Virus record (IMG/VR): IMGVR_UViG_3300046169_000006
Span: 1 to 59,095 of that record
Length of the DNA stretch: 59,095 bases
DNA from: a virus
Reading direction: 5' to 3' (one strand)
Made by a program: the position numbers and the translations under genes. Of this stretch, positions 19,720 through 53,755 are shown piece after piece (positions within the stretch are counted from its first letter, which is position 1; each line of letters opens with the position of its first letter). The notes under the pieces were generated by a model. That model saw only the letters and a program-made list of their open reading frames with translations, searched no databases and was not told the origin of the DNA.

Positions 19720-19748
19720 AAAGTATCGTATATGTGTTAACGTGTCAA
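19720..19748 (-). promoter_or_regulatory. Sigma70-type promoter before the scaffold/coat genes
   Basis: On the minus strand TTGACA (19748-19743) and TACTTT (19725-19720) are separated by 17 bases. The predicted start site falls on or next to the ATG at 19713. The -35 and spacer are covered by an operator dyad (19735-19750). Confidence 0.6.
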
Positions 19749-19750
19749 CA
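19735..19750. promoter_or_regulatory. Operator dyad TGTTnACnnGTnAACA, copy at scaffold promoter
   Basis: TGTTAACGTGTCAACA reads as a full match to the dyad found upstream of several transcription units. It overlaps the -35 element and most of the spacer of the minus-strand promoter, a position that would block RNA polymerase. Confidence 0.7.
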
Positions 19751-19760
19751 GATATACTCT

Positions 19761-21800
19761 TTACTGTCCGTTCGGGCGCGGGCTCATAGTATTAGATTGT
19801 CTTCCGCCCATCTGAGAACCGTCTTCTTGCATATTAGCAGCTTGTTCAGCTTGCATCTGTTGCTGCATCATCATTTGCTGTTGGGCTGCTTGCTGCGCTT
19901 GTTTTTTCTCAAGCTCTTCTCGAGACGGTACAAGGCGATCAACATTAGTGTTGAGATTGGACGCCAGATCCCGCATGAGTTCAGCCGTGCCCTCAGGTCC
20001 GACAATTTGTTGAGCAACTGGGCTCTCAAGGATAAGACGTAAGAAGTCGTTCTTTCTAACAGCTTCCGCTTCTTTAACAACAAGCGACATCGCGCCTCGT
20101 GCAATAATTTGTACATCACCAATTAAGTCCGGATCATCCGAGTACCGTAGGTTACGTTGGTACTGGCGCTCGAGCATTGGGGTTAGTACATCATGGTCAA
20201 CGTTACCGATAACCTGTTTAATGCTCTTGCCTGCGTTTGAAATAAGCATGGATAGGCCGGAAGACGTACGTCCTGCGCCCGGAACATGCTGCCCTGTCAT
20301 ATAACGTGGTATACCTGACACTTCGTCTGCTAATTCCATAAACTTCTCAAACACGGCCATAAGCTCACCGGCGTTAGAGTTAGGTTGGAAAAACTGCATA
20401 GGAGCTGAAGCATCACCGTATTCTGATGATTTGAACTGCCATATCTTCCAAGGGTGCATCTGCGTTATGTCTTCGCCTGCCGGTAAACGGCTTATATTCA
20501 CGCCTACCTGCGGTCCAGAAGAAATACCCATGTTATTAGCCAGTGCACGAGCAGCGGCGTTACACATGTTCTGTGCATCCATACAAAGATCGGCTACCCC
20601 ATTTCCGTCGATACGTCCGGGGACTTTCTCGAAAGAAGTGAGGTAGTAAGGTTTACGCCCAATCGGGTCGTAATTAAGAACAGCTTTAATAACTGTGTTG
20701 TTAACCATCCACACTTCACAAGGGTATGATTTATGCGGATCATCTACTTCAGACTCATCCATACCCCATTCCATGAGGATTTTTCCAGGGATTGAGTCCC
20801 AAAGCTGCAACGCTGCGATAACATCGCCGTCTGCATCATCGAAATCTTTATCAGTAACATCTTCCATGTCACTACCGTCTTGCTCTACCCAGTCCATGCC
20901 TACAGCACCGAAGTCAGCAAGGAGCGATCTAACGGCGTCCTCGTCGTAACCTTCTACGCCTAGCATAGCTTCAACGTCATCACGGGTTAGGTGGTGTAGC
21001 TCCATGACGGGCATATTCTGTATATCATCGCCCCAAGGTGCATAATAGAACTTATAAGGGTCTACTCTCTCCCACTCGTCACGTAGTACGTCTACAGCGG
21101 CGAGACCGCCCTGCACATACTTCATGGCCTTACGTTTGCGGGGGATAGGACCTTTCAAGACAGCGAACGGGAATGTCGCTAGATCGTTCGTAAATTCGTA
21201 GAGGGCTTTTACCCAGCCGCCCTCTGCAAGCTGGTCTTCCATCTTCAGTTCCATACGCTCAACACGTTTCTCCGCTTCGAACTTCATAGCTCGTGTAGCG
21301 GTATCTTTCATGCCTGAGGCAAGGTTCTTTAGTTCAGACTGGTCGAGAGGTGCACCGCCCGAAGAGTAATACTGCTGTAGGTTCACCTGCATTATTCTCT
21401 GCAAGTTACTAGCAACTTCCGGTGGGACTTCAGGGATGGGTGTAGCACTAATGCCCCAAGGCTTGTCAGCCCCAGTGCCTAGAAGTGTATCGCGCAACCA
21501 TGCAGTAGCAGTCCTGCACTTAGTACTGACAATACCCATAAAGATTTCAGAGCCGCCTTGTTCACGTATCTCTGCCATCTTCGCTGGGTCATATTCCATG
21601 TTCCTTGCACGTACGCACGCAGACAACCGATCTTCGATCGTATTGCGCTTATGGTCTCGCATAACTTCCCAGCGCTTTCGTACATGCGCTGCTAGACCTT
21701 GTACCATTGGTGTCATCTGCTTTTCAGCAGAGTCGCGAAGCGCCGCAGCCTCTAAATCAGAGGCACGGGCAACAGGAATAAGTTGCGGACCTAGTGCCAT
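19761..21800 (-). CDS. Portal protein
   Basis: The 679-residue protein (KRWEVMRDHKRNTIEDRLSA, STKCRTATAWLRDTLLGTGA, VERMELKMEDQLAEGGW) has the mixed helix/strand stem-wing order and length of podovirus portals, including GVADLCMDAQNMCNAAARAL in the clip/stem helix zone and a Gln/Met-rich C-terminal barrel-like tail (KKQAQQAAQQQMMMQQQMQA). It should form the dodecameric ring for DNA passage. It follows TerL and has its own upstream promoter and operator. The ribosome site is weak (GAGAT). Confidence 0.88.
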   Translation of the reverse strand: MALGPQLIPVARASDLEAAALRDSAEKQMTPMVQGLAAHVRKRWEVMRDHKRNTIEDRLSACVRARNMEYDPAKMAEIREQGGSEIFMGIVSTKCRTATAWLRDTLLGTGADKPWGISATPIPEVPPEVASNLQRIMQVNLQQYYSSGGAPLDQSELKNLASGMKDTATRAMKFEAEKRVERMELKMEDQLAEGGWVKALYEFTNDLATFPFAVLKGPIPRKRKAMKYVQGGLAAVDVLRDEWERVDPYKFYYAPWGDDIQNMPVMELHHLTRDDVEAMLGVEGYDEDAVRSLLADFGAVGMDWVEQDGSDMEDVTDKDFDDADGDVIAALQLWDSIPGKILMEWGMDESEVDDPHKSYPCEVWMVNNTVIKAVLNYDPIGRKPYYLTSFEKVPGRIDGNGVADLCMDAQNMCNAAARALANNMGISSGPQVGVNISRLPAGEDITQMHPWKIWQFKSSEYGDASAPMQFFQPNSNAGELMAVFEKFMELADEVSGIPRYMTGQHVPGAGRTSSGLSMLISNAGKSIKQVIGNVDHDVLTPMLERQYQRNLRYSDDPDLIGDVQIIARGAMSLVVKEAEAVRKNDFLRLILESPVAQQIVGPEGTAELMRDLASNLNTNVDRLVPSREELEKKQAQQAAQQQMMMQQQMQAEQAANMQEDGSQMGGRQSNTMSPRPNGQ

Positions 21801-21831
21801 TTTTTTGATCTCATATATGTGATACTACCCT

Positions 21832-21860
21832 ACAATAGCGTTAATCTGCTAACAGGTCAA
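21832..21860 (-). promoter_or_regulatory. Sigma70-type promoter before the portal gene
   Basis: Minus strand TTGACC (21860-21855), 17-base spacer, TATTGT (21837-21832). Transcription would begin about 25 bases upstream of the portal ATG at 21800. The -35 lies inside an operator dyad. Confidence 0.55.
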
Positions 21861-21862
21861 CA
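21847..21862. promoter_or_regulatory. Operator dyad copy at portal promoter
   Basis: Minus strand TGTTGACCTGTTAGCA matches the dyad TGTTnACnnGTnARCA at every fixed position. It covers the -35 hexamer of the portal promoter. Confidence 0.65.
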
Positions 21863-21864
21863 CA

Positions 21865-23628: not shown

Positions 23629-23657
23629 ATGCTAACTCGTGAACACATTTAAGTCAA
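23629..23657 (-). promoter_or_regulatory. Sigma70-type promoter before the terminase genes
   Basis: Minus strand TTGACT (23657-23652), 17-base spacer, TAGCAT (23634-23629). The start site would be at or within a base or two of the ATG at 23620, so the mRNA may be leaderless. This is the first promoter of the late minus-strand block. Confidence 0.55.
23630..23645. promoter_or_regulatory. Operator dyad copy at terminase promoter
   Basis: Minus strand TGTTCACGAGTTAGCA fits TGTTnACnnGTnARCA at all fixed positions and overlaps the spacer and -10 of the terminase promoter. Confidence 0.65.
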
Positions 23658-23789
23658 TATATACGGAAACCGTCGCCGTCGGTATTAACCCGGGTAGCCC
23701 CTGCCGACGAAAATAACTGAAAAACATGTTATCAACTTAAAAGGGTCAATTTTTGGGTTGCGGTATACGTGATACCTAAGGGCTGGGTG

Positions 23790-23820
23790 CCCCCCGTGCC
23801 CCCGTCGGTCCCTCCCCCCC
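23790..23820 (-). other. Predicted G-quadruplex motif
   Basis: On the minus strand four G runs of 7, 3, 5 and 6 are separated by loops of 1, 6 and 3 bases. This satisfies the standard intramolecular G-quadruplex rule. It is the only such run noticed in the window and lies outside genes, upstream of the terminase promoter. Confidence 0.65.
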
Positions 23821-24060
23821 TCAATGTCTGCGCCGCGCCTATAGTGTAAGGTCGAATCGCTGAATCATTTAATCGATTGTCATGCTTTAGAACCTTGCCG
23901 CCACGCGGTGATAGTGCTCGCCCTTGTGCGCCTTGAGGTTCAATCGCTTTATGCTTTGAATCAATCGGTCACGCTAATAGTTACAGGGAATCACGCTATC
24001 ACGCACCACGCGCAGAAATTCGTGTCGGTGTGTCTATCGAGTAACGTCGGTAAACCTTGT

Positions 24061-24075
24061 ACAGTTAATAACTGT
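24061..24075. promoter_or_regulatory. 15-bp perfect dyad, operator candidate
   Basis: ACAGTTA and TAACTGT flank one central base. Half-site length and symmetry are typical of a repressor site. The sequence differs in spacing from the dispersed TGTTnACnnGTnARCA dyads, so it may serve another regulator. Confidence 0.45.
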
Positions 24076-24105
24076 TAATGACTTGTTCCGCTCGGTGTAG
24101 ATCCT

Positions 24106-24255
24106 ATGAGGTCAGTCCCTCTCACAATGTGTGATGATAAAACGCGATTAGCACGCGGTACTGAACAATTATCGGATAAGTTGCTAAGGGTTAAACCCTT
24201 TAGGGTTTTTCGCAATGGGTATGCAATCCCGCGTATCTATTGTGTAACACCTTAA
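24106..24255 (+). CDS. Possible leader ORF (49 aa), doubtful
   Basis: An ATG at 24106 opens 49 codons (MRSVPLTMCDDKTRLARGTE... ending YCVTP) and stops 24 bases before the first early gene. It has no clear ribosome site. It runs through the hairpin pair at 24186-24210, as a leader peptide in an attenuator would. The product is basic with no recognised family. Chance opening is quite possible. Confidence 0.25.
   Translation: MRSVPLTMCDDKTRLARGTEQLSDKLLRVKPFRVFRNGYAIPRIYCVTP
24186..24210 (+). terminator. Attenuator-like pair of exclusive hairpins / weak terminator
   Basis: Segment CCCTT (24196-24200) can pair with AAGGG (24186-24190), while the overlapping AAACCC (24193-24198) can pair with GGGTTT (24203-24208), which is followed by TT. 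The two hairpins exclude each other. The second has a short A/T stem and T-run like an intrinsic terminator. It lies 70 bases before the first early gene. Confidence 0.4.
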
Positions 24256-24279
24256 CCAATCAATTGGAGTAATACTATT

Positions 24280-24777
24280 ATGCGTAAAATTAACGCTATC
24301 AAAAAATCTATCGACACGCTTGCACGTAATACCAAATCATTGCGCGACAAGTACCACGTAATCCTATGCGAAGTTGCAGGTCATGCCTATGAACACGGCG
24401 ACCCGCGTTTATTCGATAATATACTCAATGCCGCCTCAGGTATGGCACGCAAAGAGATGGTTAAATGGATAACCGCCAATGGCTTTGCACGCATCACAAA
24501 AGATGGCGTAGCTGTTAACAAGTCTGCACGTAAAGAAGCTGATTTCGAGAATGGTGACGCGGTCGTGGCGTATCTAATGGACCAACCTAAATGGTACGAG
24601 ACTGAGCAGACTGTCGCTCAAATCGTTAAGGACTTAGACGTTCAACAACTGATCGCAATGGTCCACAAAAAGATGGACGACGCTGAAGAAAAAGGTGCTC
24701 AGGTACTCAACAAGGACCCAGAAGCTACTGCTAAGCTGATCGATCTAATGGCTGAGCGTGCTAAACGTGCGGCATAA
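24280..24777 (+). CDS. First early gene, conserved phage protein of unknown function
   Basis: The 165-residue protein (MRKINAIKKSIDTLARNTKS) has a recurring phage motif, ILCEVAGHAYEHGDPRLFDN, then MVKWITANGFARITKDG. The C-terminal third is helical and charged (IVKDLDVQQLIAMVHKKMDD). I have seen the central motif in other tailed phages, always unassigned. It has a good TTGGAG ribosome site. Being first in the early block it may be expressed immediately. The small charged helical make-up would suit a host-takeover or DNA-associated protein, but this is inference. Confidence 0.75.
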   Translation: MRKINAIKKSIDTLARNTKSLRDKYHVILCEVAGHAYEHGDPRLFDNILNAASGMARKEMVKWITANGFARITKDGVAVNKSARKEADFENGDAVVAYLMDQPKWYETEQTVAQIVKDLDVQQLIAMVHKKMDDAEEKGAQVLNKDPEATAKLIDLMAERAKRAA

Positions 24778-25089: not shown

Positions 25090-25105
25090 TGTTTACATGT
25101 ATACA
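25090..25105. promoter_or_regulatory. Operator dyad copy before the 87-aa membrane gene
   Basis: TGTTTACATGTATACA matches the dyad with one mismatch in the right half. It lies 17 bases before the start codon, just upstream of the TAGGAG ribosome site, so bound protein could block transcription start or elongation. Confidence 0.55.
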
Positions 25106-26539: not shown

Positions 26540-26564
26540 CACGTTATGTGTTTACATGTAATCA
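26536..26564 (+). promoter_or_regulatory. Sigma70-type promoter for the MoxR module
   Basis: TTGACA (26536-26541), 17-base spacer, TAATCA (26559-26564). The TTG overlaps the codon region at the end of the preceding gene. It starts the transcription unit of the MoxR/VWA genes about 40 bases upstream of the ATG at 26610. Confidence 0.65.
26549..26564. promoter_or_regulatory. Operator dyad copy at the MoxR promoter
   Basis: TGTTTACATGTAATCA matches the dyad with one change in the right half and overlaps the spacer and the whole -10 hexamer. Confidence 0.6.
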
Positions 26565-33631: not shown

Positions 33632-34201
33632 ATGCCTAGCAATAAGAAGGGCATCAGCCCCCTAGCGGCTACAACAGAGCGTTTTTTACGGAACCCTGAT
33701 AAGGTTAACGACTGGTTAGTTATAACCGACAAACACATGCAGAGTTACGCAAACGATAAAGATTTGTTTGTGCTACCGAAACAACATGAGTTTATGGAGC
33801 CAGTGATAAAAGCCTACGCGCATGACCTTGCAGGGTTTGCGCAGTATTTGCTCGAACTGAGGGACAACTTCGACAAGAAGTCTCGACAGTTTGTGGACGT
33901 ACAAGCGGTATATCGCCGAGTTAACGGACGGCATGTACAGCAATCACGTCGTCAGCGGATAGCTAAGGCAGTAAAGAAAGCGGAGGAACTGTTTGGTGAA
34001 ATTGCATACACAAAACGTATGCAATGGATGGCTGAGTTAGAACATGAATGGGCACGACGACGACTAGCGTTTCTCGAAACACAACGCGAGCGACTGAAGC
34101 AAGAACGTCTATCGACGGAACTGCGAACAGAAATGCTCCTCGAGTTTTGGGAAATAATTGATACTGAGATTTTTATGGGAGAATTACCACCGTGGAACTA
34201 A
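33632..34201 (+). CDS. Early protein of unknown function, helical (189 aa)
   Basis: Preceded by GGAAGG. The 189-residue protein is helical, with coiled-coil-type segments (FAQYLLELRDNFDKKSRQFV, RRLAFLETQRERLKQERLST). Its middle is basic (VQQSRRQRIAKAVKKAEELF). The ending overlaps the nuclease start by ten bases. It may be an accessory to that nuclease but the sequence gives no direct proof. Confidence 0.65.
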   Translation: MPSNKKGISPLAATTERFLRNPDKVNDWLVITDKHMQSYANDKDLFVLPKQHEFMEPVIKAYAHDLAGFAQYLLELRDNFDKKSRQFVDVQAVYRRVNGRHVQQSRRQRIAKAVKKAEELFGEIAYTKRMQWMAELEHEWARRRLAFLETQRERLKQERLSTELRTEMLLEFWEIIDTEIFMGELPPWN

Positions 34202-34857
34202 TAAAGGCTTGGAGTTATTCAGCCCTAACCGCGTTTGAAACTTGTCCGCGCCGCTTTGAGTTAACACGAGTTACTCGAGAGGTTAAGGAGCCGCAGACAG
34301 AAGCTACTATCTGGGGTAACGAGGTACACAAAGCATTGGAACTGTTTGCTAAAGACGGTAAGCCATTGCCCACTCACCTCAAAAAGTACGAGCGTTACGT
34401 AAAAAAGATTCTGTCCTATGAGGGAAAGCGTGTGATCGAACAACAGATCGCGCTCGACCGCAATTTCCGTCCTACTACATGGATGGCAAAGGACGTATGG
34501 GTTCGCGGCATCATCGACATCGGTGTTGTGGGTTCCGACAGAGCATACTTACTAGACTGGAAAACTGGTAAGCGTCGACCAGATACAGACCAACTCAAAC
34601 TATTCGCCGCACTAGCGTTCGCTGTGTATCCGTGGATAGATAAAGTTACGACTGGATTTATCTGGCTAAAGTCTGGAGAGTTTGATAAGCAGGTGTTTAC
34701 ACGTGAACAGTTACCAGAGATATGGAACGAATTTATGCCACGCCTAAAACGCCTAGCCATTGCCCACAACGAAGACAAGTGGACGCCCAAGCCTAGCGGA
34801 CTGTGTAAAAACTGGTGCCCTGTTGGTAAACACAACTGTGAATTCTGCGGAGTATAA
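34192..34857 (+). CDS. PD-(D/E)XK exonuclease of RecB/Cas4 type
   Basis: A GTG start at 34192 gives 221 residues. Motifs are SYSALTAFETCPRRFEL (9-25), WGNEVHKALE with H46, D109 (GIIDIG), D122 and K124 (LLDWKTGK) and Q134, the order of the PD-(D/E)XK RecB-like exonucleases. C18 together with C205, C209, C216 and C219 near the C-terminus suggests an Fe-S cluster as in Cas4/AddB enzymes. No CRISPR array or cas gene is in the window, so it is better read as a recombination or replication exonuclease. Confidence 0.85.
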   Translation: MELIKAWSYSALTAFETCPRRFELTRVTREVKEPQTEATIWGNEVHKALELFAKDGKPLPTHLKKYERYVKKILSYEGKRVIEQQIALDRNFRPTTWMAKDVWVRGIIDIGVVGSDRAYLLDWKTGKRRPDTDQLKLFAALAFAVYPWIDKVTTGFIWLKSGEFDKQVFTREQLPEIWNEFMPRLKRLAIAHNEDKWTPKPSGLCKNWCPVGKHNCEFCGV

Positions 34858-34858
34858 A

Positions 34859-35032
34859 GTGGACAACATAAGAGACTTATCCATCGACAGACTGATGAAA
34901 CTAAACACCGAAGACCTGCTCATCCTAGCGTTGAGCCAGAGCAAACTCACTGGATTAGAGATAGAACTCCTTAATCGCTTAGAGCAATTCTTGTCTATGC
35001 ACGGAGACTACCTCGAGGAGACTCACCACTAA
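34859..35032 (+). CDS. Small helical protein (57 aa) with GTG start
   Basis: The GTG at 34859 has a perfect GGAG six bases upstream and lies one base past the previous stop, so it is favoured over in-frame upstream starts. The product (MDNIRDLSIDRLMKLNTEDL, LEIELLNRLEQFLSMHGDYL) is helical and acidic. It ends in TAATG, coupling to the next gene. Function unknown; it may partner the adjacent nucleases. Confidence 0.6.
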   Translation: MDNIRDLSIDRLMKLNTEDLLILALSQSKLTGLEIELLNRLEQFLSMHGDYLEETHH

Positions 35033-35346
35033 TGGGTATGACACCTGAAGGTAAAGTCAAAAAGAAGTGTAAAGAGTATCTTCAACAGATCGGTGCTTGG
35101 TACTATATGCCTGTAAGTAATGGTATGGGGCGCGTTGGTTGTCCTGACATTCTGGTATGCCACAAGGGTTTATTCATGGCCTTTGAGACTAAGGCGCCGG
35201 GAAAGATAAAGAATGTTACGGCTAATCAAGAGCGTGAAATAACTGATATACAACGTGCTCACGGGTTAGCACTTGTTGTCGACGACGTCGAGCAAATGAA
35301 AGAGGCTATACATGACAAAATCAACGAAGCAGGAATTAAAGACTAA
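35032..35346 (+). CDS. VRR-NUC domain nuclease
   Basis: The 104-residue protein fits the short, phage form of VRR-NUC: MTPEGKVKKKCKEYLQQIGA, VSNGMGRVGCPDILVCHKG and MAFETKA, with the catalytic D39, E52 and K54 and a following Gln66. This family cuts branched DNA structures, so resolution of replication or packaging intermediates is likely. It is in a three-nuclease block. Confidence 0.85.
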   Translation: MGMTPEGKVKKKCKEYLQQIGAWYYMPVSNGMGRVGCPDILVCHKGLFMAFETKAPGKIKNVTANQEREITDIQRAHGLALVVDDVEQMKEAIHDKINEAGIKD

Positions 35347-37525: not shown

Positions 37526-37550
37526 CAGATGAACGCATATAAACTAATCT
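37522..37550 (+). promoter_or_regulatory. Sigma70-type promoter for the AlpA-like gene
   Basis: TTGACA (37522-37527), 17-base spacer, TAATCT (37545-37550). It starts inside the end of the helicase gene and would drive the AlpA-like regulator and the following SSB-like gene. Confidence 0.7.
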
Positions 37551-37565
37551 GTTTACAAGTGAACA
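37550..37565. promoter_or_regulatory. Operator dyad copy at the AlpA-like gene promoter
   Basis: TGTTTACAAGTGAACA fits TGTTnACnnGTnARCA exactly and lies from the last base of the -10 over the transcription start. Confidence 0.75.
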
Positions 37566-37581: not shown

Positions 37582-37785
37582 ATGAACTTGCTTAAACCTG
37601 AAGAGGTAAGTGAAAAACTTGGTATCACCAAGGCGGCGCTACCTGCGTTGCGAAGAAGAGAGACGACCTTCCCCCAACCCATAAAGGTATCACAGAAAGT
37701 ACTCAGGTGGGACGAGGAAGATATTGATAACTGGCTGAACTCAAAAAAGGAGAGTAACAATGGCGAAAGTCGGAGAACTGGATGA
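37582..37785 (+). CDS. AlpA/MerR-type small DNA-binding protein
   Basis: The 67-residue protein (LLKPEEVSEKLGITKAALPA, LRRRETTFPQPIKVSQKVLR, WDEEDIDNWLNSKK) is a winged helix-turn-helix of the AlpA/excisionase type. Such proteins serve as excisionases or as regulators of phage genes. Its promoter carries a perfect operator, so self-control is possible. It is the only clear small HTH regulator in the window apart from the membrane-anchored one. Confidence 0.8.
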   Translation: MNLLKPEEVSEKLGITKAALPALRRRETTFPQPIKVSQKVLRWDEEDIDNWLNSKKESNNGESRRTG

Positions 37786-38161
37786 TGAATCCTTAACAAA
37801 AATCTATATTGCCGCGCGCGATCGTCGTGCGCAACGGAAGGCGGCGTTCAACGACGACGACTCCGGAGATAAGCTGAAGCAAGAGAAGATCGAGATCGAG
37901 TTCTTGCGTAGGTTCCAAGACCGAGGAATAGACAGTGTGTCTATCCGTGGTGTAGGTACTGCTTACAGGTCAACACGTTCATCTGCTACAGTAGCGGATT
38001 GGGACGCGTTCTTAGACTATGTACGCGACAAAAACGCATGGGAACTCCTTGAGCGCCGTGTAAACAAAACTGCGCTTGAGCAGATCAAAGAAGTAGAAGG
38101 CGACTTAGCCCCCGGCACCAACTGGTCCGAGACTGTTGTCATCAACTTCCGCCGTAAATAA
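37760..38161 (+). CDS. Phage protein of unknown function, in replication block
   Basis: The 133-residue protein overlaps the AlpA-like gene by 26 bases and has a good AGGAG ribosome site. The C-terminal pattern AWELLERRVNKTALEQIKEV then APGTNWSETVVINFRRK recurs in phages near SSB genes. It has a charged helical N-terminal half. Probably a partner in DNA replication or annealing, but this is by association. Confidence 0.7.
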   Translation: MAKVGELDDESLTKIYIAARDRRAQRKAAFNDDDSGDKLKQEKIEIEFLRRFQDRGIDSVSIRGVGTAYRSTRSSATVADWDAFLDYVRDKNAWELLERRVNKTALEQIKEVEGDLAPGTNWSETVVINFRRK

Positions 38162-39170: not shown

Positions 39171-39186
39171 TGTTAACACGTAACTT
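39171..39186. promoter_or_regulatory. Partial operator dyad before the primase-helicase gene
   Basis: TGTTAACACGTAACTT has an intact left half of the dyad and a degenerate right half. It lies between the terminator and the start of the large primase-helicase gene, 13 bases before its ATG. Confidence 0.4.
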
Positions 39187-42148: not shown

Positions 42149-42323
42149 TATTGATCTATCCATTCCGCCAGAGCGGATCGTCGATGCGTTGGTAAAGATA
42201 CAGCGTACGGCGACGCCTGCTATGAAAGCGTTCTTGATATACCACATCAGAGCGCGAGGCGGGATAGTGCCTCCAGCTTGTGAACAAGAGTTGCACCAGA
42301 ACCGTAGCGTTCACGCGATGTAG
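42141..42323 (+). CDS. Small ORF overlapping the primase-helicase end (uncertain)
   Basis: The 60-residue frame starts inside the end of the primase-helicase gene (8-base overlap) and runs against the 3' end of the integrase on the other strand. MNDIDLSIPPERIVDALVKI is helical. No clear ribosome site and no known family. It may be a real tail gene of the operon or a chance frame. Confidence 0.4.
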   Translation: MNDIDLSIPPERIVDALVKIQRTATPAMKAFLIYHIRARGGIVPPACEQELHQNRSVHAM

Positions 42324-43530
42324 CATGTCCCATCAAATCAGCACATAGCCTATCAGGTTCTTTTAATGCCAGTAGGCGATCTTCGAAACTATGACGGAGG
42401 CTATATACAGTATGGCCTTTCGTTTCTAACAAACCCTTCCTCCTCAAATACCTATTCATATCATCAGAGAACCTATCTTTACCTGCGTATCGTGGGAAAC
42501 CATTTGGATGCCTGCGCATAGCGGTAAGCGATACCCCAACAAGAGGTATCTCACGCGCTGAGACTCTGTTCTTCAAAGCCCTCGTGGCGTTTGGTCTAAC
42601 TTTTATATGGGGTATGTTACCAGATAGGTCTATGTCCTCAGGCTCTAAGCCTGCCACTTCCGCAGGTCGGCACCCTGTATTCACCAACACAAGGAAGATG
42701 TCTCTCGCCTCTTCGTTAGGCCCTGTAAGTATCTCTTCAGTAAAGTTATCTTTCATCCACGCCACAGAGAATGGCGGCCTATGGTTCTCGCTCTGTACAA
42801 ACCGAAGACCTTTGAAGTGGTTAACTAGCGGCAACCGCTTACGGTCTATGATTGTCTGGAACGCAGTTGAGATGTAGCTGATATCTTTGTTGGCGTTGTT
42901 AGGCGTCGCCCCATCGTCGACGATACGGTCCTGCCACCAGTCGCGGAACTCAAGCGCATCATCTCTCTCGACATTCGCAATGTCCACATCCCCCAACAAA
43001 CCTACCAAGTTCTTAAAGGCTTTCAGTCGTGGGTTTCTCCACCGGCGCATCTGGTCCGCACTCTTACCAACTAGCTTTGTCTTCTCGAAGTCGAAGTACA
43101 AGTCATTCATGTCAGAGAGTTTTATCGTCGGTCGTTTGACTGAGCCCAGTACAGCACCACTGACGACAGGGTCGTCGGCCTCGCTTGGGTTTAGCGCTTC
43201 TATGCGACGTAGAACTTCTTCTAACCCTCTACCCAGTAACTCCTTCTCAGGACGATACCGTACCCCTCGTGCCGCCGCCACTTTAACCATAGCTTCAAAC
43301 TTCTCAGAGTCACTGGAGCCTTCCGATAGAGCAGTCCAGTAGTTAAGGAGGTTGTCCTCCACCTCTGGAACCTTACGCCGTGCCTCACTTTCGCTGTCAG
43401 TCTTTAGAGATATTTGACAAGGCCACGGGTATCGTAAGGCTGTGAACCGCTTAGGAACTCTCTTTACAAAGTAGTACGTTTTCCTCGTTGTATCAGGGCC
43501 ATCCGTCGTAGATAGCCCTAAATCCTCCAC
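42247..43530 (-). CDS. int: Tyrosine recombinase/integrase
   Basis: The 427-residue protein has a DUF6538-like N-terminus (KTYYFVKRVPKRF), a core-binding part (140-235) and the catalytic fold: R288 in GCRPAEVAGLEPEDIDL, a basic residue region (RALKNRVSAREIPL), Y376-x-x-R379 in YSLRHSFEDRL, H402 in LMGHAT and Y409 in RERYG. It recombines attP and attB to integrate the phage. The first His of the second box is replaced by Tyr, as I have seen in DUF6538-type relatives. The start is a GTG at 43530 with the only GGAGG inside the first codons, which is unusual. Confidence 0.92.
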   Translation of the reverse strand: MEDLGLSTTDGPDTTRKTYYFVKRVPKRFTALRYPWPCQISLKTDSESEARRKVPEVEDNLLNYWTALSEGSSDSEKFEAMVKVAAARGVRYRPEKELLGRGLEEVLRRIEALNPSEADDPVVSGAVLGSVKRPTIKLSDMNDLYFDFEKTKLVGKSADQMRRWRNPRLKAFKNLVGLLGDVDIANVERDDALEFRDWWQDRIVDDGATPNNANKDISYISTAFQTIIDRKRLPLVNHFKGLRFVQSENHRPPFSVAWMKDNFTEEILTGPNEEARDIFLVLVNTGCRPAEVAGLEPEDIDLSGNIPHIKVRPNATRALKNRVSAREIPLVGVSLTAMRRHPNGFPRYAGKDRFSDDMNRYLRRKGLLETKGHTVYSLRHSFEDRLLALKEPDRLCADLMGHATSRERYGSGATLVHKLEALSRLAL

Positions 43531-43570: not shown

Positions 43571-43658
43571 ATGAGAGTGATGAGTCGTGCAGGGTGCTAA
43601 GTGCCTGTAATCATTGAATAATGTATGAGGAATGTGGCGGACAGACAGGGATTCGTGC

Positions 43659-43697
43659 TATCTGTTTACGTGTTTGTTTTCAATAGGTTAACAGATA
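43659..43697. repeat. Inverted repeat TATCTGTT...AACAGATA in the attP region
   Basis: Eight-base arms at 43659-43666 and 43690-43697 each contain one half of the operator dyad (TGTTTAC at 43663-43669 and GTTAACA at 43687-43693). They lie between the two direct repeats, in a region likely to hold attP and the integrase promoter. Confidence 0.5.
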
Positions 43698-43814: not shown

Positions 43815-46800
43815 CTATTCAAATCTTTTCTTCGCTTTACTTTCCCGCTTCCATTGCTGCATTGGAGCTTTGTACAAATCACCGATATTCTGGCGTCTCA
43901 AGGCTGATGGGTCCTTACCAAAGAACGGTCGCACTCTATCTTTTTGTTTCTGCAAGTCACGGAACTCATCGCGCAACTCAGACATGGTGCTTTTATCTTT
44001 GGCTCGTGAAGCGTCAATGTACTCTCTACGAATACGACTTGTCTGCTCGCTAAAGTATGCGCTCAACTCGTACTGCTGACTTCTTGTCCACTTAATCTTG
44101 TTGATCTCACTGGCTGGTAGCCCAAGGGCATTGACTAACAAACTGCCAATGTTCACGTCTCTAGGGTCTACTACCACGTCGCCGTTCTTAAACGAAACGC
44201 CTTCTGTCCCTATTCTATACGACTCGATAGCGGTTCGTATACCTTTTGGTACCATATATTCTATGGCTTTTAGTGGATCGCCCTGCCCAAAGTACTCGAC
44301 AGAACGCGTGAAGTTAATAGCAGTAGTACCAGATGGACCGGCTGCAAGGTTAAACACAAGGTCTTTTACGCCATCCTCAGACACATCGTAATCAAGGTAT
44401 GGGAATGGGTCGAATATCTTACCTTGGCTTAACTTAGTCGACATGTCGATACCAACGAAGTTGAATACCCCTTTGGATAACACCTCGCCCATCTTGCCGG
44501 GAACTTGTGTTTGAATCCAGCGATCTAGGTCTTCTGGCTCATCTTCCCCAGAGAACAAGAATACTAGGCCAGCTAAGGTTCCTACCAGTGGGATACCTGT
44601 AACACCGGCAAAGATACCTGCGTGAGCAGTCATGTAAGCTAGGGTACGCATACCCATCGCTCGCATCTCTTTACTCTCACCTTTAAACGATTGCTTAGCG
44701 GCGTTAACGTAAGCCCACACCATCATAAACTGGTACTTTCGATACTGGGTGGTTAGTTTAGGTAGTTTCTTAATAATTAACGGAGCATCCATACGAGAGA
44801 AGTTACCCTGCGTATCTTCCACCACACTGATTGCGTACTCAGCAGGTGTCATCCCCTGTCGTCTAGCCACTTGAGGTTTTGCTGTTGCCAAGTCAAACGC
44901 GGCTACCGCCGATGAAATACGGTTATGGGCTTCGACCAATCGCGCCGCTTGGTACAGTTTGTGTGTAATCATACCTAGCTTGTCGGACGCTACGTTCAGT
45001 GCCTCGTACCCTGTATTGAAACGATCGAAGGATGACAAATCTTCTTCCATACCAACGTCTAGTAAGTTCCGTAACTGAAGTTCTTCGAGGAGTGCTTTGT
45101 ACTTCGATGGTACTTTATCTAAGTCAATCTCAGTCTCAAATTTCTTAGTCATCCTAGCTGAACCAATGGCGACTTTGTACCCACGTGTTAGCTTATTCCA
45201 TGCCCCCGCGTAATCTCCGAAGTCACCTGCTAATCGTGGAACTGTAACCATCGCAGGCTGAGTGGCGTTCGTGACGTGATAACCGATACTAGATGTCAGC
45301 ATGTACACAGAGTTAAGAGCGGCGACACGGTCTTGGATACGTTGGAATAATGTATCTTGGTAGATAAGGGTATCTTTGTAGTGAGCCACCAACATGTTAT
45401 ACACAGGGCTAAGGGCTTCACGGTCTTGCTCAGTCTGTTTCTGCGCCTCTGCCAGTGCCATGTTAATTTCTGCACCATGCTCCATCGTAGAGATCATAGC
45501 TGCTTCTGCTCTTGCGTGAGACAAGAACGAGCGGACCATGTTCGTTTCATAACCTGCACGGTTCTTACGTTTAGCACCTGACACTCTTGCATCTCTCTCA
45601 TCCAGAGAGTCGAAGTACATATCGCGTACCATCTCAGCAAAGGCTTGTTTAGACGCCGCATCTATCTGGTTTGCATCCGCCGCCTTTAGTGCACCGAGTA
45701 CTCTCTGGAACACTTCTGGGTTACTCACTCTATCAGACATCAAGTCTTCTGTTCGTTCTGACGGTACTGCGTATGCGAACTTTCCTTTACTCGCCTCAGT
45801 AAACTTCTTAGCCGCACCCATAGTGTCGAAGAAACTTACCACATAGTCGCTTGGACTAGACTTTAGGTCTTCCACGGCTTTACGTGTTGCTTCGGTAGAA
45901 TCCTTCGCGTCTTGTGCTTCTGCATCAAGGAGTGCTTGTGATTTTAAGACCCCAGCGTAACCACCAAAACGTTTCAGTGGAGCATAAGGCCCCTCTAGTT
46001 CTGCGGCACTAAAGAAACTTCTAGGAACATCTAGCAACTTAGCAACTGCTTGTTTGCGCAAGCGCATGTTTTCGCCGTGTTGGAAGATATCCCGAACAAG
46101 GGCTTGCTCTACAGGGCTAAGGCGGTTGAACTTCTGTTGCATCACAGGGTCAACTTTTATAGCACGTACATTCCCATCAACATCAGTGAACTGTGGGTCG
46201 TAGCCCCACTTCTGGAAGAACGTAGACTTACTGATAAAGTCGTTAACAGCAGCTAATCGCTCAGGCTTTATCTCTCTGGCCCGTACTGCAATAGCTTCCA
46301 CCTGACGTCGTATATCTTGGCGCGTCTTATCAGCTTCTTTAATTGCCTGATACATTCTACCTGCCGCAGGCATACGACCTTTAACTTCACGAACAAATTG
46401 ATGGAGGAACTTGAGAGACTGCGTCGCACCTCTCGATACTTCAGCCAAATCATCAAGGGCTTGTTTAGCTGTTGGCCCCATGTTCTTACGGACCCACTCA
46501 CCTTTACGGTTATGCTCTTCTTGCGACGCGGGTGTAGGGTTTACAGAACCCGCCATAGTATCTGACTGGTAGTCTGTGTTGTCGTTGATAGGGTCACGAA
46601 GGTTTGCGTTCTTAACTTTACCTAAGTACTCCACAAAGGTGGTGCTCGGGAGATAGTCTTTATTGGCAAGTTTATCGTAGAAACTCTTCATTGCTTTACC
46701 TAGGCGAGAGAAGAACTTCTCTACCGCACTTACAGGCGCTTCTTGCGTTGTTGCCCATCGTGATACTTGGTCAGCATACCACTCGTTAAATGACTTCCAG

Positions 46801-49800
46801 TAGGGAGCCACTTGGTTGAACGGAATGTCTGGAGTGCTTGTCGTCTTGCCTGTCTTTCTAGCACGTAGTGCTTCCACAAGACCTTTAGCTGACTTCGTTG
46901 TTTGTTCACGTAACCACTTGCCATGCTCTTCAACAAGCTGCTTCTGCATCTCTGGAGGTGCTTGGTCAAACACTTCCTTCTGGTGCACGTGGCCCATTTC
47001 GTGAGCAATAGTTTCTAGGACTGCGATCTTAGATGCTTGTTCGTCGTAGATGATGTAGTGGCTGCCGTCAGGTAAACGACGCGTCGAACCACGCTCACTG
47101 GCATCTAGTGTTCCAGAACCAACGGCTCTGAGTGGCCCTGTGAAGTTTAGTTTGTCAGCCCGCGCATCGTCTAGTGTTGTAACATATACATCCGCACCCA
47201 GACCTAGTTGGGCTTTCCACTCGCGAATAACACCTTGTGTCTCAGGGCTTACATTGTCAGAGAACGCGAGGCCCTCTTCGTAAGTTACGTAAGGCTGTTC
47301 GTCGTGTATGCGTTGCGCTTCGGCCTCTGCGTCTTTCTTAGCTTGAACCAGACTCGCTACTTGCTCTGGAGTAAACTCGTTCCCCACATAACTTTCAACG
47401 TCGACGTTTGTAAACATGGTACCCTTAGCCGCGACGTATACAGGAGCACCAGTAATGGCACTGTACCCACGTACAAGAGCGATATCACCTTCTTGGTAGA
47501 CAACTTCACCACCGATCTTTTCGGCGACGGCATCTACAGCGTTTAACTCAGATTCTTTCGCTTTACGCTTAGCTTCGGGGGCTTCTTCAGGATTCTTTGG
47601 AGGCTTGACTACGCGACGTTTCTTCTTGGTAACAACTGGCACCTTCGCCGCGCGGGCATTTTGTTCCTCAGCACTTAGCTGTTGAGCTTCTGGCTCGGCG
47701 ACTTCAGGTTCAGTCCGAGTTTGTTGTACTTCTCCGCCATCTTGGCTAGACGCTTCTTGGTTTCCTTGGCTTTCAGCTTGTCCGACGCTGTCGGTTGTTT
47801 CAGTATTGTTTTGGGCATCTTTAGTATCCTGTATATGTTCACTGCGCAGTTGGTCAAAATAAGCGGCTAACCCGTCTTCATCCAAGTCCCCCATTTGGAA
47901 CTCTGTATGGTAACTAAGCCACTCGAAGCGATACCCTGCGTCCATGTCATCAAACTTTACGTTACCATCTTTCTGTGTAGATTCAAACTTACCCCATGCA
48001 CGCGCCGCAGGTTTGTAAGCACTGTCCGCTTTCATCTCTGCATCATGCTGGGCGCGAACTGCCGAAAGCTCGTCCGTCGTCTGTTGCTGTATTGGCGTTT
48101 CTTCCTGCGATTGGGTGTAGGCGCGGTCTTCTGCACTTACGTCAGTGTAAGCACCTTGATTAGGAGAAGCCAGTGTCTCCATACTGTTCCCGACTTCTTG
48201 AACTTCTAGGGCCGCTTCGTTGGCGTTGAGATCAAGGGCTTCAACATTTTTAACCCGCGTGGCTCTTAGCCCCGCCTGAATCGCGGCAACGTCTCCTTTT
48301 CCATCAGCACCGATAACACCATTCTCTTTGGCGATCTTCTCCAGTACACGGCCTACTTGTTTAGCAACTGTTCCTTTACCTACACCTGCTAGGTCTGCAA
48401 TTACCGCATCGTTCCACTTGCCGTTAACTTGCAGAACTTTGTCTATTTCATCGTTGTTAATAGCGTCACGGATGACATCAAAAATTCTCTTCTGGGCTTT
48501 AGGTAACGCTAGGTCTTCAGGGATAGAGACTGCTTCTGCATCTAGTGCAGGTTCTTCCTGAGTACTTTCGTCGGTCGTTTGCGCTGCGGGCGCCTCTGCA
48601 ACGACGGGTTCTACCGGAGCAGGTACATCTTCTGCTACAGTTTCAGTCGGAGCTGGTTGCTGTTTGTATAAGTCGTCGACGGTATTCTGGAACGCGTTGT
48701 ACTTTCTAGCGGCTAAGGTTTCGACCAACTCAGGGTTCGTTTCGCGCCAGTTATTACCTAACTTCTCTGTGGCGTAACTTATAGCCTGACCTTCTATACC
48801 TGCCACAGGCTCAGGTGCAGTCTCAGCCGCAGGCTCTGCTACAGTTTCTTCAAGGGGCGATGTAACTTCTGGGAGGGCCGCCGCTTTCTCTGCAACTATC
48901 TTGTCTAGCATAGTCTCGAAGCGTGACTTCCTGCCGCCACCTTTGGAATACATGCCACGGCCATCAGCCGCTAACTGGGATAATGACGGCTCGTCTTGCT
49001 CCCAAGTCTCTCCAAGCAGTTCACGAGCCTTCTCAATAAGTTGTTCTTTCTTTGTAGCAGGTTTCTTTGACTTAGATTCTTTCTCTGACTGAGCAGGTTC
49101 CGCCACGGGGGCAAGGTCTGGTAGATCAAGGCCCATAGCCGCCTGACGCATCTGACCTATTACAGCAGCTACTTGGGGGTCTAGGGCTGCACTTGCTTCG
49201 TTGAAGGCGTCATCATCTAACTGTAAAACCTCAGGTGTCGCATCGACCACACTCTTGGCCTGTGCAACAGTTTCTACGTGCGCGTCTAACCCAGATACGT
49301 ACTCTGCTTCAAACTGCGCTGAAGCATCATTTTCTTTCTGGTAGCTTTTGACATAAGTCTTTGCTGCTTTCTGTATATCTACAGGGTCAAAGATTTCTTG
49401 CTCATCCAGAAAGGTTTCAAAGTTCTGCCCAATCTCAGTCTCTGGGTTGAGAACGTCTACTTCAAGCGCCTCTGTGGCTTCAGCTTGACGTGCTTTGATA
49501 AACTCATCGCGGGGTGTGTACGTAGAAGCTGCTTCACGGCGTGTTCGTCCACGAGCGGTTCTCTCTGCTTTCTCTTCTAGGGCCTGCTTTTCGGCTTGCG
49601 CTTTCGCCACCTTGGCGTCTTCTTGCGCTTGCGCCTCTAGGGCAGCATCTTCTTCTAACTCGCGTACATAGTCGGCTTCTTCCTTGGCAGCCACAGCTTT
49701 ATTAACAGCACGGTTAGACCTAAACTGCGTGGCGGCACTCATCGAACCACCCATTCCCATACCAGTAAAGCCGCCAATAACAGCAGAACTACCGACGTCT

Positions 49801-50759
49801 TCGTAAAACGGCTTGTCATTGCCTAGGTTCGTGAAGCCTTGCTCTTGGCCACTCTGTAAAAATTCTTCCGCGCCTTCTACAGCTAGGCCTCTACCTGTAG
49901 ATTTTATAATACTGCCCTTACCCACTTCATCGATAAGGTCTTTGACTCCGCCAGCTGCGGCAGTATCTATGTCCATTTTATTAAACTTCGCACCGCCACG
50001 GGAGATTAGACTGGTTCCTATCCCTGCTGCGGCGCCGTACAAACGGTCATTGCTGTAGTCTGTCCCGATACCATCGTAGTCTTGGCGGACAATGTTAGCT
50101 ACAGCATCACCCCCAGCGACAGCACCCTCACCAATGGCACCGGCAGTCATACCACTGATAGGTTTTAACCCTGCGCCTTTAGCGGTTAACTTAACACCTT
50201 TACCTATAACACCACCCGCAAAGATATGAGGTACTGTCTGGCCTATAAGGTTAAATATCTGGGATGGGTTCTCTCCAATGTACTCTGCGGCTTCCCCACC
50301 TTGCGACACCATAGTGTCATAGATGTGGTACATCTTGTCACCCATACTCGCGTCATCAGGCAACGTATCAACTGTCGCAGCGGCTTCTTTAATACGTTGG
50401 CCTAACTCTGCGTTCTTATTTTGTTGAAAGTCAGATAGAAGTTTCTCATCACCATACTCCCCCAAGTCATACAGACCTTGAGCGATAGGGTCAGCAACAT
50501 AGTGAAGCCCGTCGACAAGACTACCTAGAGAGGTAACGGCGCCAAGGGCTTTGGGTATACCTGTGAGAACACTTGCCCCAACGTCAGCCGTTCTGCGTAA
50601 AAATCCGGGGTCCTCAACTTCCACTTTAGACTGCTGGGATTCATACTTTTCGAGCAGCTTCTTTTGCTGATCGCTTAGACCCGTGTTGCTATCATCCTGC
50701 ACTGGCTGCTGATTTTGGTACTTCTCGATAAGGGCCTTCTGCTGTTCCGTAAGTGCCAT
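43815..50759 (-). CDS. Giant polyvalent virion protein with zincin and PLxRFG-type region
   Basis: The 2314-residue protein has an N-terminal Gly-rich, membrane-like part (about 60-360), long acidic/Ala-rich coiled coils, and HTH-like and unknown modules. A zinc metallopeptidase follows with AHEMGHVHQ (H1253, E1254, H1257) and a third ligand in FNEWYAD (E1326). The C-terminal third is of the PLxRFG (PYAPLKRFGGYAG) large polyvalent type, with a hydrophobic segment (FAGVTGIPLVGTLAGLVFLF) near 2000-2060. It is likely injected with DNA, may form a channel and modify host proteins. Position as the last late gene fits an internal virion protein. Confidence 0.85.
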   Translation of the reverse strand: MALTEQQKALIEKYQNQQPVQDDSNTGLSDQQKKLLEKYESQQSKVEVEDPGFLRRTADVGASVLTGIPKALGAVTSLGSLVDGLHYVADPIAQGLYDLGEYGDEKLLSDFQQNKNAELGQRIKEAAATVDTLPDDASMGDKMYHIYDTMVSQGGEAAEYIGENPSQIFNLIGQTVPHIFAGGVIGKGVKLTAKGAGLKPISGMTAGAIGEGAVAGGDAVANIVRQDYDGIGTDYSNDRLYGAAAGIGTSLISRGGAKFNKMDIDTAAAGGVKDLIDEVGKGSIIKSTGRGLAVEGAEEFLQSGQEQGFTNLGNDKPFYEDVGSSAVIGGFTGMGMGGSMSAATQFRSNRAVNKAVAAKEEADYVRELEEDAALEAQAQEDAKVAKAQAEKQALEEKAERTARGRTRREAASTYTPRDEFIKARQAEATEALEVDVLNPETEIGQNFETFLDEQEIFDPVDIQKAAKTYVKSYQKENDASAQFEAEYVSGLDAHVETVAQAKSVVDATPEVLQLDDDAFNEASAALDPQVAAVIGQMRQAAMGLDLPDLAPVAEPAQSEKESKSKKPATKKEQLIEKARELLGETWEQDEPSLSQLAADGRGMYSKGGGRKSRFETMLDKIVAEKAAALPEVTSPLEETVAEPAAETAPEPVAGIEGQAISYATEKLGNNWRETNPELVETLAARKYNAFQNTVDDLYKQQPAPTETVAEDVPAPVEPVVAEAPAAQTTDESTQEEPALDAEAVSIPEDLALPKAQKRIFDVIRDAINNDEIDKVLQVNGKWNDAVIADLAGVGKGTVAKQVGRVLEKIAKENGVIGADGKGDVAAIQAGLRATRVKNVEALDLNANEAALEVQEVGNSMETLASPNQGAYTDVSAEDRAYTQSQEETPIQQQTTDELSAVRAQHDAEMKADSAYKPAARAWGKFESTQKDGNVKFDDMDAGYRFEWLSYHTEFQMGDLDEDGLAAYFDQLRSEHIQDTKDAQNNTETTDSVGQAESQGNQEASSQDGGEVQQTRTEPEVAEPEAQQLSAEEQNARAAKVPVVTKKKRRVVKPPKNPEEAPEAKRKAKESELNAVDAVAEKIGGEVVYQEGDIALVRGYSAITGAPVYVAAKGTMFTNVDVESYVGNEFTPEQVASLVQAKKDAEAEAQRIHDEQPYVTYEEGLAFSDNVSPETQGVIREWKAQLGLGADVYVTTLDDARADKLNFTGPLRAVGSGTLDASERGSTRRLPDGSHYIIYDEQASKIAVLETIAHEMGHVHQKEVFDQAPPEMQKQLVEEHGKWLREQTTKSAKGLVEALRARKTGKTTSTPDIPFNQVAPYWKSFNEWYADQVSRWATTQEAPVSAVEKFFSRLGKAMKSFYDKLANKDYLPSTTFVEYLGKVKNANLRDPINDNTDYQSDTMAGSVNPTPASQEEHNRKGEWVRKNMGPTAKQALDDLAEVSRGATQSLKFLHQFVREVKGRMPAAGRMYQAIKEADKTRQDIRRQVEAIAVRAREIKPERLAAVNDFISKSTFFQKWGYDPQFTDVDGNVRAIKVDPVMQQKFNRLSPVEQALVRDIFQHGENMRLRKQAVAKLLDVPRSFFSAAELEGPYAPLKRFGGYAGVLKSQALLDAEAQDAKDSTEATRKAVEDLKSSPSDYVVSFFDTMGAAKKFTEASKGKFAYAVPSERTEDLMSDRVSNPEVFQRVLGALKAADANQIDAASKQAFAEMVRDMYFDSLDERDARVSGAKRKNRAGYETNMVRSFLSHARAEAAMISTMEHGAEINMALAEAQKQTEQDREALSPVYNMLVAHYKDTLIYQDTLFQRIQDRVAALNSVYMLTSSIGYHVTNATQPAMVTVPRLAGDFGDYAGAWNKLTRGYKVAIGSARMTKKFETEIDLDKVPSKYKALLEELQLRNLLDVGMEEDLSSFDRFNTGYEALNVASDKLGMITHKLYQAARLVEAHNRISSAVAAFDLATAKPQVARRQGMTPAEYAISVVEDTQGNFSRMDAPLIIKKLPKLTTQYRKYQFMMVWAYVNAAKQSFKGESKEMRAMGMRTLAYMTAHAGIFAGVTGIPLVGTLAGLVFLFSGEDEPEDLDRWIQTQVPGKMGEVLSKGVFNFVGIDMSTKLSQGKIFDPFPYLDYDVSEDGVKDLVFNLAAGPSGTTAINFTRSVEYFGQGDPLKAIEYMVPKGIRTAIESYRIGTEGVSFKNGDVVVDPRDVNIGSLLVNALGLPASEINKIKWTRSQQYELSAYFSEQTSRIRREYIDASRAKDKSTMSELRDEFRDLQKQKDRVRPFFGKDPSALRRQNIGDLYKAPMQQWKRESKAKKRFE

Positions 50760-52293: not shown

Positions 52294-53309
52294 CAGTGGA
52301 CCTCCTTAAAATCAATGTTCAGTAGATCGTATTTGACCGCCTTGTATCCATTATCCATCATCACAACCGCGTCTGGATAGCTCAACTCGACTTCATCGGC
52401 CATTACACCTTGGAAGCGACGGTCATCACCGATGTAGTTAAACTGGTAAAGGGTTAGTGCTGTACGCTGATCGACGCCGACTTCTTCAATGTTTTCTTTG
52501 ATACGACGGTCCGAGAAGGCTGTGTATGCAGCTGCCGCACCACCTAGTAAGCCACCGATATCACCAAGCATACTCTCTTGGCTGTTCATGTAAGATTGTG
52601 TTTGGTTGTTAAGGACTGTGCTCAAACCCTGTATCTGCATGTTCTGACCTGCTGCAATAGTTCCTGCGGCTTGGCCCATACCAGCAACCATGTTTTGACC
52701 GGCTGACTGTGCGTTCATACCTGCTTGAGAACCTGCGCTCGTAGCCCCGCCGTACGCGGCAGTAGATGCGCCTGCTAATCCACGGCCAAGACCTGTGGCA
52801 TCTAGCTTTCTTGCGTAGCCCATTTGCTCCGCTCTGTTTCTAGCACCTGTCATAGCATTGGCTCGTGACGCGGCTTGTTGTAAACCTGAGGCAGCGTTCA
52901 TACCAGCGAACCGGCCTGAGTTAGGGTTAACACCCATTGAGGCACTCGCACGTTCGTTTTGTGCTCTCGCTATACCAAAAGCACGACCTGAGTCAGCTGC
53001 TGCTTGGGCGGACACTTGATCCTTGTAGGATTCTGTATTGAAGTTCTCAGCGTCAGCTACCAGTCCTTTTTCTAGGGGTCTAAACGTCTCGACCTGATAG
53101 TCGTAGTAGTCTTTAGCCTGATCCATCTGCTGTTGTTGGGCTGCCATCTGGGTGTCAGCAATCTCTTGGAGCATAGGAGCGTTCTGCTCATACATCTCTT
53201 TGGAGAACTCAAGTTGGTCACGACCTAATTGCTCTTGCAGCTCCGCCGCATACGCACTGGCTTCTGCTACAGCAGTGTAATCGGGAGCTTCTACGTCTGG
53301 TTTACTCAT
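52293..53309 (-). CDS. Virion protein with C-terminal S74-type auto-processing domain
   Basis: The 338-residue protein has a helical, Gln-rich N-terminus (QEIADTQMAAQQQQMDQAKD), an Ala/Gly/Ser-rich middle (GLAGASTAAYGGATSAGSQA) and a C-terminal chaperone-type domain, SDRRIKENIEEVG (S266/K271 dyad), LYQFNYIGDDRRFQGVMADE and YKAVKYDLLN. The S74 domain is unusual in an internal-core type protein and may help its trimer assembly. ATG overlaps the next gene stop. Confidence 0.75.
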   Translation of the reverse strand: MSKPDVEAPDYTAVAEASAYAAELQEQLGRDQLEFSKEMYEQNAPMLQEIADTQMAAQQQQMDQAKDYYDYQVETFRPLEKGLVADAENFNTESYKDQVSAQAAADSGRAFGIARAQNERASASMGVNPNSGRFAGMNAASGLQQAASRANAMTGARNRAEQMGYARKLDATGLGRGLAGASTAAYGGATSAGSQAGMNAQSAGQNMVAGMGQAAGTIAAGQNMQIQGLSTVLNNQTQSYMNSQESMLGDIGGLLGGAAAAYTAFSDRRIKENIEEVGVDQRTALTLYQFNYIGDDRRFQGVMADEVELSYPDAVVMMDNGYKAVKYDLLNIDFKEVH

Positions 53310-53730
53310 CGTCTAATCCTCTAAAATAGTTCTCAGGCCACAGAACCAAAACAATTACGTCTTGGCCGTCTGCGCCTGCCTGTGCCATAACGCCCTCTTC
53401 TACGAAGCCGATACGCTTATCAATTTTCAGTGCTTTGGAATTAGTTTCTGCAACAAATCCCGTCAGCCGTCTTAGCTTACAGAACCGAAACGCGTAGTTA
53501 GCCGCGTGGTCTAGTAGCTTTAAGAACAGTTTACTGGGTTTGCTGGCAGCGATATGAGCAGTGGCATTACTCTCGTTAAAGTTGTTGAACACAACACCAC
53601 ATACTATTTGACCGTTGACTTCAGCGCCCATCGCGTAAAACGAACCCCAAGGAACTTTATGGCCCGTTTGCTGTTGAACCCACTCTCCGACTCGATCTTT
53701 GTCGTCGAATACTAAACGAGAGGTGGTCAT
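53302..53730 (-). CDS. GNAT-fold protein, internal virion type
   Basis: The 142-residue protein has GNAT pattern: QIVCGVVFNNFNE, LLDHAANYAFRFCKLRRLTG, VAETNSKALKIDKRIGFVEE. In T7-like phages a small protein at this place in the operon (gp13) has the same fold. Whether it still transfers acetyl groups or has a structural role is not told by the sequence. It has a good AGGAG and an operator just upstream. Confidence 0.7.
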   Translation of the reverse strand: MTTSRLVFDDKDRVGEWVQQQTGHKVPWGSFYAMGAEVNGQIVCGVVFNNFNESNATAHIAASKPSKLFLKLLDHAANYAFRFCKLRRLTGFVAETNSKALKIDKRIGFVEEGVMAQAGADGQDVIVLVLWPENYFRGLDDE

Positions 53731-53739
53731 GGGTACTCC

Positions 53740-53755
53740 TGTTTACACGTTAACA
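53740..53755. promoter_or_regulatory. Operator dyad copy before the GNAT-fold gene
   Basis: TGTTTACACGTTAACA matches the dyad exactly. It overlaps the ribosome site edge and lies 10 bases before the ATG at 53730. A possible promoter, GTGACT-17-TATGCT, lies just upstream near 53770-53800 on the minus strand. Confidence 0.65.

Follow-up and report, generated by a model that had tools for sequence, protein, structure and literature searches.

A repeated 16-bp palindromic dyad points to a probable network of dispersed operators at early and late genes in a group of uncultivated phages

Immunity based on dispersed operators, with sites that block elongation, is best characterised in the mycobacteriophages. 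Those of the L5 type in cluster A (L5 gp71) carry more than 20 dispersed repressor sites, which lie within promoters as well as in the spaces separating genes (PMC9283540, PMC6550527), and D29, a lytic derivative, has lost the repressor and kept the sites (PMC5712189). Here we analyse a 16-bp palindromic dyad repeated along the IMG/VR virus record IMGVR_UViG_3300046169_000006, the entire record (59,095 nt) being referred to as the window. A preliminary description, made from the sequence alone, had proposed that one repressor acting on such dyads could silence both early and late genes. This idea has gained strength: sequence comparison gives good support to a single dispersed operator network that covers early as well as late genes in a temperate phage, because the placement of the dyads is conserved, they overlap -35 and -10 elements, and they are lost jointly with the integrase. 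The network has the appearance of a whole-genome off-switch, not described before, that would keep a phage dormant, and we found no description of the dyad operator in the literature. We consider it likely that the dyads are the dispersed operators of a lysogeny (immunity) repressor, with g33632 as its most probable gene.

The exact pattern TGTTNACNNGTNARCA occurs at eight places in the window (12 strand matches, as the palindrome frequently matches both strands), against 0.01 expected from shuffles. With a symmetrised matrix (consensus TGTTTACATGTAAACA), 16 sites between positions 3730 and 53740 reached 20 bits or more; none of 50 Markov-shuffled genomes gave a score above 17.6. The repeat is therefore larger than the seven copies first listed, of which those at 19735, 21847, 23630, 37550 and 53740 are exact and those at 25090 and 26549 have one mismatch each. 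The nine additional sites, most of them in-gene, comprise three exact copies (7153, 34694 and 37960, all within genes) and six non-exact ones (3730, 5654, 14027, 18374, 24513 and 35256). Unsupervised clustering of palindromes also returned the dyad family as the largest in the window and in two relatives, G001 and G002, with 11-14 copies compared to 4-6 in shuffled sequence; the simple form of gapped 4-mer dyad enrichment did not clearly bring the motif out. The sites are as follows, including three that are weaker or weakened.

19735..19750, minus strand: dyad TGTTGACACGTTAACA; contains the -35 of TTGACA-N17-TACTTT before g19453/scaffold; equivalent in most relatives
21847..21862, minus strand: dyad TGTTGACCTGTTAGCA; overlaps the -35 ahead of the portal gene; recurs in relatives
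23630..23645, minus strand: dyad TGTTCACGAGTTAGCA; 10 bp before terS, at the -10 of the candidate promoter TTGACT-N17-TAGCAT; recurs in relatives
25090..25105, plus strand: dyad TGTTTACATGTATACA; 18 bp before g25123; one mismatch to the exact pattern
26549..26564, plus strand: dyad TGTTTACATGTAATCA; 3' of TTGACA, ahead of the gene for the MoxR-like ATPase; one mismatch to the exact pattern
37550..37565, plus strand: dyad TGTTTACAAGTGAACA; 17 bp ahead of alpA, covering the -10/start of TTGACA-N17-TAATCT
53740..53755, minus strand: dyad TGTTAACGTGTAAACA; ahead of the GNAT-like gene, at 10 bp
18374..18389, minus strand: dyad TGCTAACATGGAAGCA; before the major capsid gene
34694..34709, plus strand: in-gene dyad TGTTTACACGTGAACA; near the cas4exo 3' end, with gS 150 bp downstream
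35256..35271, plus strand: in-gene dyad TGCTCACGGGTTAGCA; close to the VRR-NUC gene 3' end; DNA kept, amino acids vary
37960..37975, plus strand: in-gene dyad TGCTTACAGGTCAACA; within g37760
7153..7168, minus strand: in-gene dyad TGTTGACATGTTAGCA; g7117 3' end, 39 bp before g6881
5654..5669, minus strand: in-gene dyad TGTTAACATGTATACA; 168 bp before g4989
3730..3745, minus strand: in-gene dyad TGTTGACATGAAAGCA; 69 bp before g3371
14027..14042, minus strand: in-gene dyad TGGTTACAGGTAAACA; 232 bp before g13337
24513..24528, plus strand: in-gene dyad TGTTAACAAGTCTGCA; within g24280
1906..1921, no strand assigned: weaker in-gene dyad TGCATACACGTTAACA; endolysin gene; G001 equivalent TGTTAACACGTATGCA
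39171..39186, plus strand: weak dyad before primase/helicase; 7.4 bits
33595..33610, plus strand: weakened dyad CATATACATGTAAGCT before g33632; TATATACATGTAAACA, TACATACATGTAAACA and TACTTACATGTAAACA in relatives; proposed autoregulatory operator

In a window that is 94.6% coding, eight of the 16 dyads are intergenic, against 1.0 expected, and the next downstream start codon lies at a median of 45.5 bp, compared to 625 for random positions. The copies had originally been placed in non-coding DNA just upstream of start codons; this is true of half of them, the other eight lying in the 3' parts of genes and mostly a short way 5' of the next start codon. Overlap with promoters, also part of the first proposal, was found: the dyads before g19453 (with TTGACA within TGTTGACACGTTAACA) and portal contain or overlap the -35, those of alpA and terS sit at the -10/start, and that of MoxR lies 3' of TTGACA. 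Placement at either the -35 or the -10/start suits repression. The preliminary description had held that as many copies inside genes as in promoters would speak against operators. The matrix scan of the whole genome did return 8 and 8, but the in-gene copies that were tested are themselves under selection and positioned ahead of the following gene, as stoperators are.

The evidence for selection comes from relatives, which were collected with TerL and SNF2-helicase queries (160 loci among viral contigs, the contigs being partial). About a hundred uncultivated relatives carry dyads at orthologous positions, namely before terS, portal, the scaffold unit, capsid, MoxR, alpA, primase and GNAT, and inside cas4exo and VRR-NUC. 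In 40 TerL- and SNF2-anchored contigs there were 165 matches, against a mean of 0.9 for column-permuted matrices. Two partial copies in the first proposal can be judged in the same way: the one at 39171 is weak in the window, while its equivalents before primase in relatives are strong (22.1 bits in G001), and the one near 33596 is a weakened copy that recurs ahead of the same gene in relatives. At the VRR-NUC site the residues differ (RAHGLAL, RVNGLAL, CAYGLAL, SANGLAL) and the dyad stays, with the codons GGG TTA GCA; relatives without dyads have different codons at this position. The site averaged 16.3 bits, compared to -7.8 after synonymous resampling, with a smaller effect at the cas4exo (15.3 vs 7.4 bits) and g37760 (9.1 vs -4.4) sites. 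Since the VRR-NUC dyad exceeds the synonymous expectation while the residues vary, the DNA element itself appears to be under selection. The annotated isolates Rollin and RHph_TM3_14A, which have related TerL and primase genes, showed no dyads in their first 50 kb.

Across the relatives, dyads accompany a module formed by the integrase, gS and g33632, and are mostly missing otherwise. The module proteins, and the AlpA-like protein discussed with them, are encoded in the window as follows.

33632..34201, plus strand: g33632, 189 aa, candidate repressor of an undescribed all-helical family
34859..35032, plus strand: gS, undescribed 57-aa helical protein with a GTG start
37582..37785, plus strand: AlpA-like protein, the binder candidate of the preliminary description; probably a target, not the binder
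42247..43530, minus strand: tyrosine integrase

Sites of at least 17 bits numbered 78 in 323 kb with the module (0.24/kb), 12 in 154 kb of the G003/G005/G006 clade (0.08/kb) and 0 in 165 kb of dyad-less lineages, a comparison that includes some near-identical records. In a SNF2 tree of 81 contigs, with weak support on some inner branches, the dyad-less contigs fall into three groups (L134/L135, L132/L133 and a 17-row clade), all nested within dyad-rich contigs. Because the window integrase, used as a query among viral contigs, matched one relative only, the integrase state was read from PF00589 matches and from the gap between primase and the giant gene. PF00589 integrases were present in 13 of 34 records and in none of the dyad-less or G003/G005/G006 records; the G001 integrase was detected through its similarity to that of the window. 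For the tables the gap was used, with G003 scored absent by hand (no integrase was found there). Where the slots were covered, co-occurrence had no exception (integrase slot vs g33632, 10:6; integrase slot vs gS, 11:9; g33632 vs gS, 37:18), and g33632 was found only in relatives whose integrase slot is filled. An unbiased comparison of open reading frame clusters gave g33632 as the best-separating cluster (34 dyad-rich, 0 poor, 0 mid) and gS (24, 0, 0) as the next with full separation. The co-loss of dyads with the putative lysogeny genes is strong as a pattern, not as statistics, because the independent changes are few.

Which protein binds the dyads? The preliminary description favoured the AlpA-like protein, which contains a helix-turn-helix (HTH) and whose gene follows one of the strongest dyads, a site that both the dyad-rich contigs and the G003/G005/G006 clade retain. 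That it is the binder and master regulator now seems quite unlikely. alpA and its promoter persist in relatives with no dyads, where AlpA is 70-79% identical and its HTH nearly the same (EKLGITKGALPALRRRE vs EKLGITKAALPALRRRE), and dyads are retained where AlpA is only 52-61% identical. Moreover, the head of the replication operon is a poor location for a lysogeny repressor. AlpA is probably not the dyad binder, because it is conserved where the dyads are gone.

The best candidate binder is instead g33632, on account of an invariant basic patch, a confident helical model and a weakened operator at its own gene; DNA binding is suggested by conservation and context. The patch, RR-NGR-Q-RR-R (R95, R96, N98, G99, R100, Q103, R106, R107 and R109), lies on one long helix of an all-helical predicted model (pLDDT 92.6), and the weakened operator precedes the gene in about a dozen relatives. 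No match to g33632 was found among isolate phages. gS shows the same perfect co-occurrence and has a conserved in-gene dyad 150 bp upstream of it, so it could bind DNA in place of g33632, or the two could act jointly with gS as co-repressor or antirepressor. We think this improbable, since gS is short, has few conserved residues (E34, E36, L37, R40 and E42, plus the start) and no conserved basic patch, and its helical model is of low confidence.

A host-encoded repressor, LexA-type or another stress regulator, could also silence the prophage through the dyads. Phages can use host repressors, and dyad loss alongside the integrase would look identical under one. In agreement with the first reading of the sequence, no CI-type gene emerged: neither 50 PHROGs-scanned proteins nor Pfam scans, which covered a subset of the window proteins, gave a match to a CI/Cro-like HTH repressor. 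A host repressor would, however, leave the exact co-loss of g33632 and gS unaccounted for. As also noted before, the spacing of the dyad differs from the LexA box CTGT-N8-ACAG, although this box is gammaproteobacterial and may not be that of the host. On balance we regard a host repressor as unlikely.

With g33632 as the most likely repressor, the prophage state could be maintained by a symmetric dimer bound to about 16-18 sites. Dyads over the -35 or the -10/+1 would stop initiation at early units (MoxR, alpA, primase) and late ones (terS, portal, scaffold, capsid, GNAT), and in-gene dyads ahead of the next gene are possible roadblocks for elongating polymerase. g33632 heads one rightward run followed by cas4exo, gS, VRR-NUC, HNH, SNF2, alpA and the replication genes. 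Because the in-gene dyads of cas4exo, VRR-NUC and g37760 lie directly downstream of it in this run, they and the alpA and primase operators could halt transcription past g33632, so that a lysogen could express the repressor and yet keep the downstream replication genes switched off. The weakened operator at g33632 fits autoregulation.

Several points weigh against this scheme. The G003/G005/G006 clade, without g33632, gS or integrase, retains strong alpA and GNAT dyads, reflecting either a recent loss or another factor that uses these two sites. Independent changes on the tree number only 2-4, so that the independent-loss test cannot reach significance. The operator before g33632 is unrecognisable in some relatives, and g33632 gave no match to a DNA-binding family or fold in Pfam (no significant match), PDB sequences, PDB folds (Foldseek) or BFVD. 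Binding by g33632, repression through the dyads and the temperate lifestyle are all things we infer, and that the in-gene dyads may act as roadblocks is suggested by analogy. We put forward more tentatively, at somewhat less than an even chance, that, in a large uncultivated phage group, g33632 founds a new family of immunity repressors whose DNA-binding fold is so far absent from solved structures, which silence the whole prophage through about 16 dispersed palindromic operators including selected in-gene roadblocks, with gS as partner or antagonist.

Some of the genome context bears on how a prophage would be kept. N15-type phages have dispersed centromere sites, and the outline of the dyad, TGTT-N8-AACA, resembles parS, so the dyads might be parS/centromere sites of a plasmid prophage. 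This is highly improbable: no ParA/ParB was matched among the scanned proteins, an integrase is present instead, and the dyads lie on promoters with bases unlike parS. Next to the integrase gene there is a candidate attachment site:

43634..43655, no strand assigned: attP-core candidate TGGCGGACAGACAGGGATTCG, a tentative sequence reading based on likeness to a tRNA-Ser gene 3' end

The surrounding window sequence (43630-43660) resembles the tRNA-Ser 3' end, and that of G002 at about 21100-21140 (L174, about 1100-1140) the 3' end of an ssrA/tmRNA gene, so that integration may target different RNA genes in different relatives. Searches for Rfam families and tRNAs gave no match. A TerL scan of genome contigs gave no host and no prophage, the single TerL (57% identical) being on a 3.9-kb contig of an Opitutaceae metagenome-assembled genome. 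The window ends (1-59095) join in one reading frame, with a stop shortly beyond the junction (FYADG...ELANA*), which makes it probable that the contig represents a near-complete, circularly permuted genome. A stretch of about 640 bp without a convincing gene (23640-24280) separates the leftward late and rightward early units, with a gap of similar length in G001, and the 2314-aa gene at 43815-50759 is highly variable in length and identity among relatives. By sequence reading, the integrase-less clade has genes for a protein resembling sigma-70 region 4 (G003 15136-15444, L176) and for a small HTH-like one (G003 14814-15134), with equivalents in G005 and G006. Palindrome clustering found no replacement dyad in most dyad-less contigs. 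One of them, G012 (L193), has another dyad, AAGTCCAC-N1-2-GTGGACTT, in six copies (524, 1123, 1792, 2568, 3990 and 9506), with single copies in G009, G010 and L138 and none in the window; these are possibly bidirectional terminators or another operator.

If the proposed network is real, an apparently independent version of dispersed-operator immunity, with palindromic sites and an unrecognised repressor, exists in a large uncultivated group, and the strategy would be more general. Dyad density, g33632 and gS would then be a sequence marker separating temperate from lytic members in metagenomes, and the relatives would offer a natural series of lysogeny losses with decaying operators. Operators within coding regions under DNA-level selection are unusual.

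As with lambda CI/Cro, palindromic operators overlap promoter elements and would control the lysogenic state; the lambda operators are clustered in one immunity region, whereas here they are genome-wide and no CI/Cro gene was seen among the scanned proteins. P1 C1, compared here at the level of the operators, likewise acts as one repressor on many scattered operators, which in P1, a plasmid prophage, are asymmetric. The L5 stoperators are 13-bp, asymmetric and oriented with transcription, while those described here are 16-bp palindromes, half of them within coding sequence; the L5 repressor is a monomer with HTH domains, and in g33632, the candidate here, neither an HTH nor a known fold was recognised. 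The likeness lies in one site being repeated many times across early and late regions (16 copies here), both within promoters and, elsewhere, upstream of genes (8 intergenic, 8 in-gene). The residual sites of the G003/G005/G006 clade, without a repressor candidate, may parallel D29 (PMC5712189), and the proposed halt of transcription after g33632 follows the same logic as the L5 stoperators (PMC9283540, PMC6550527).

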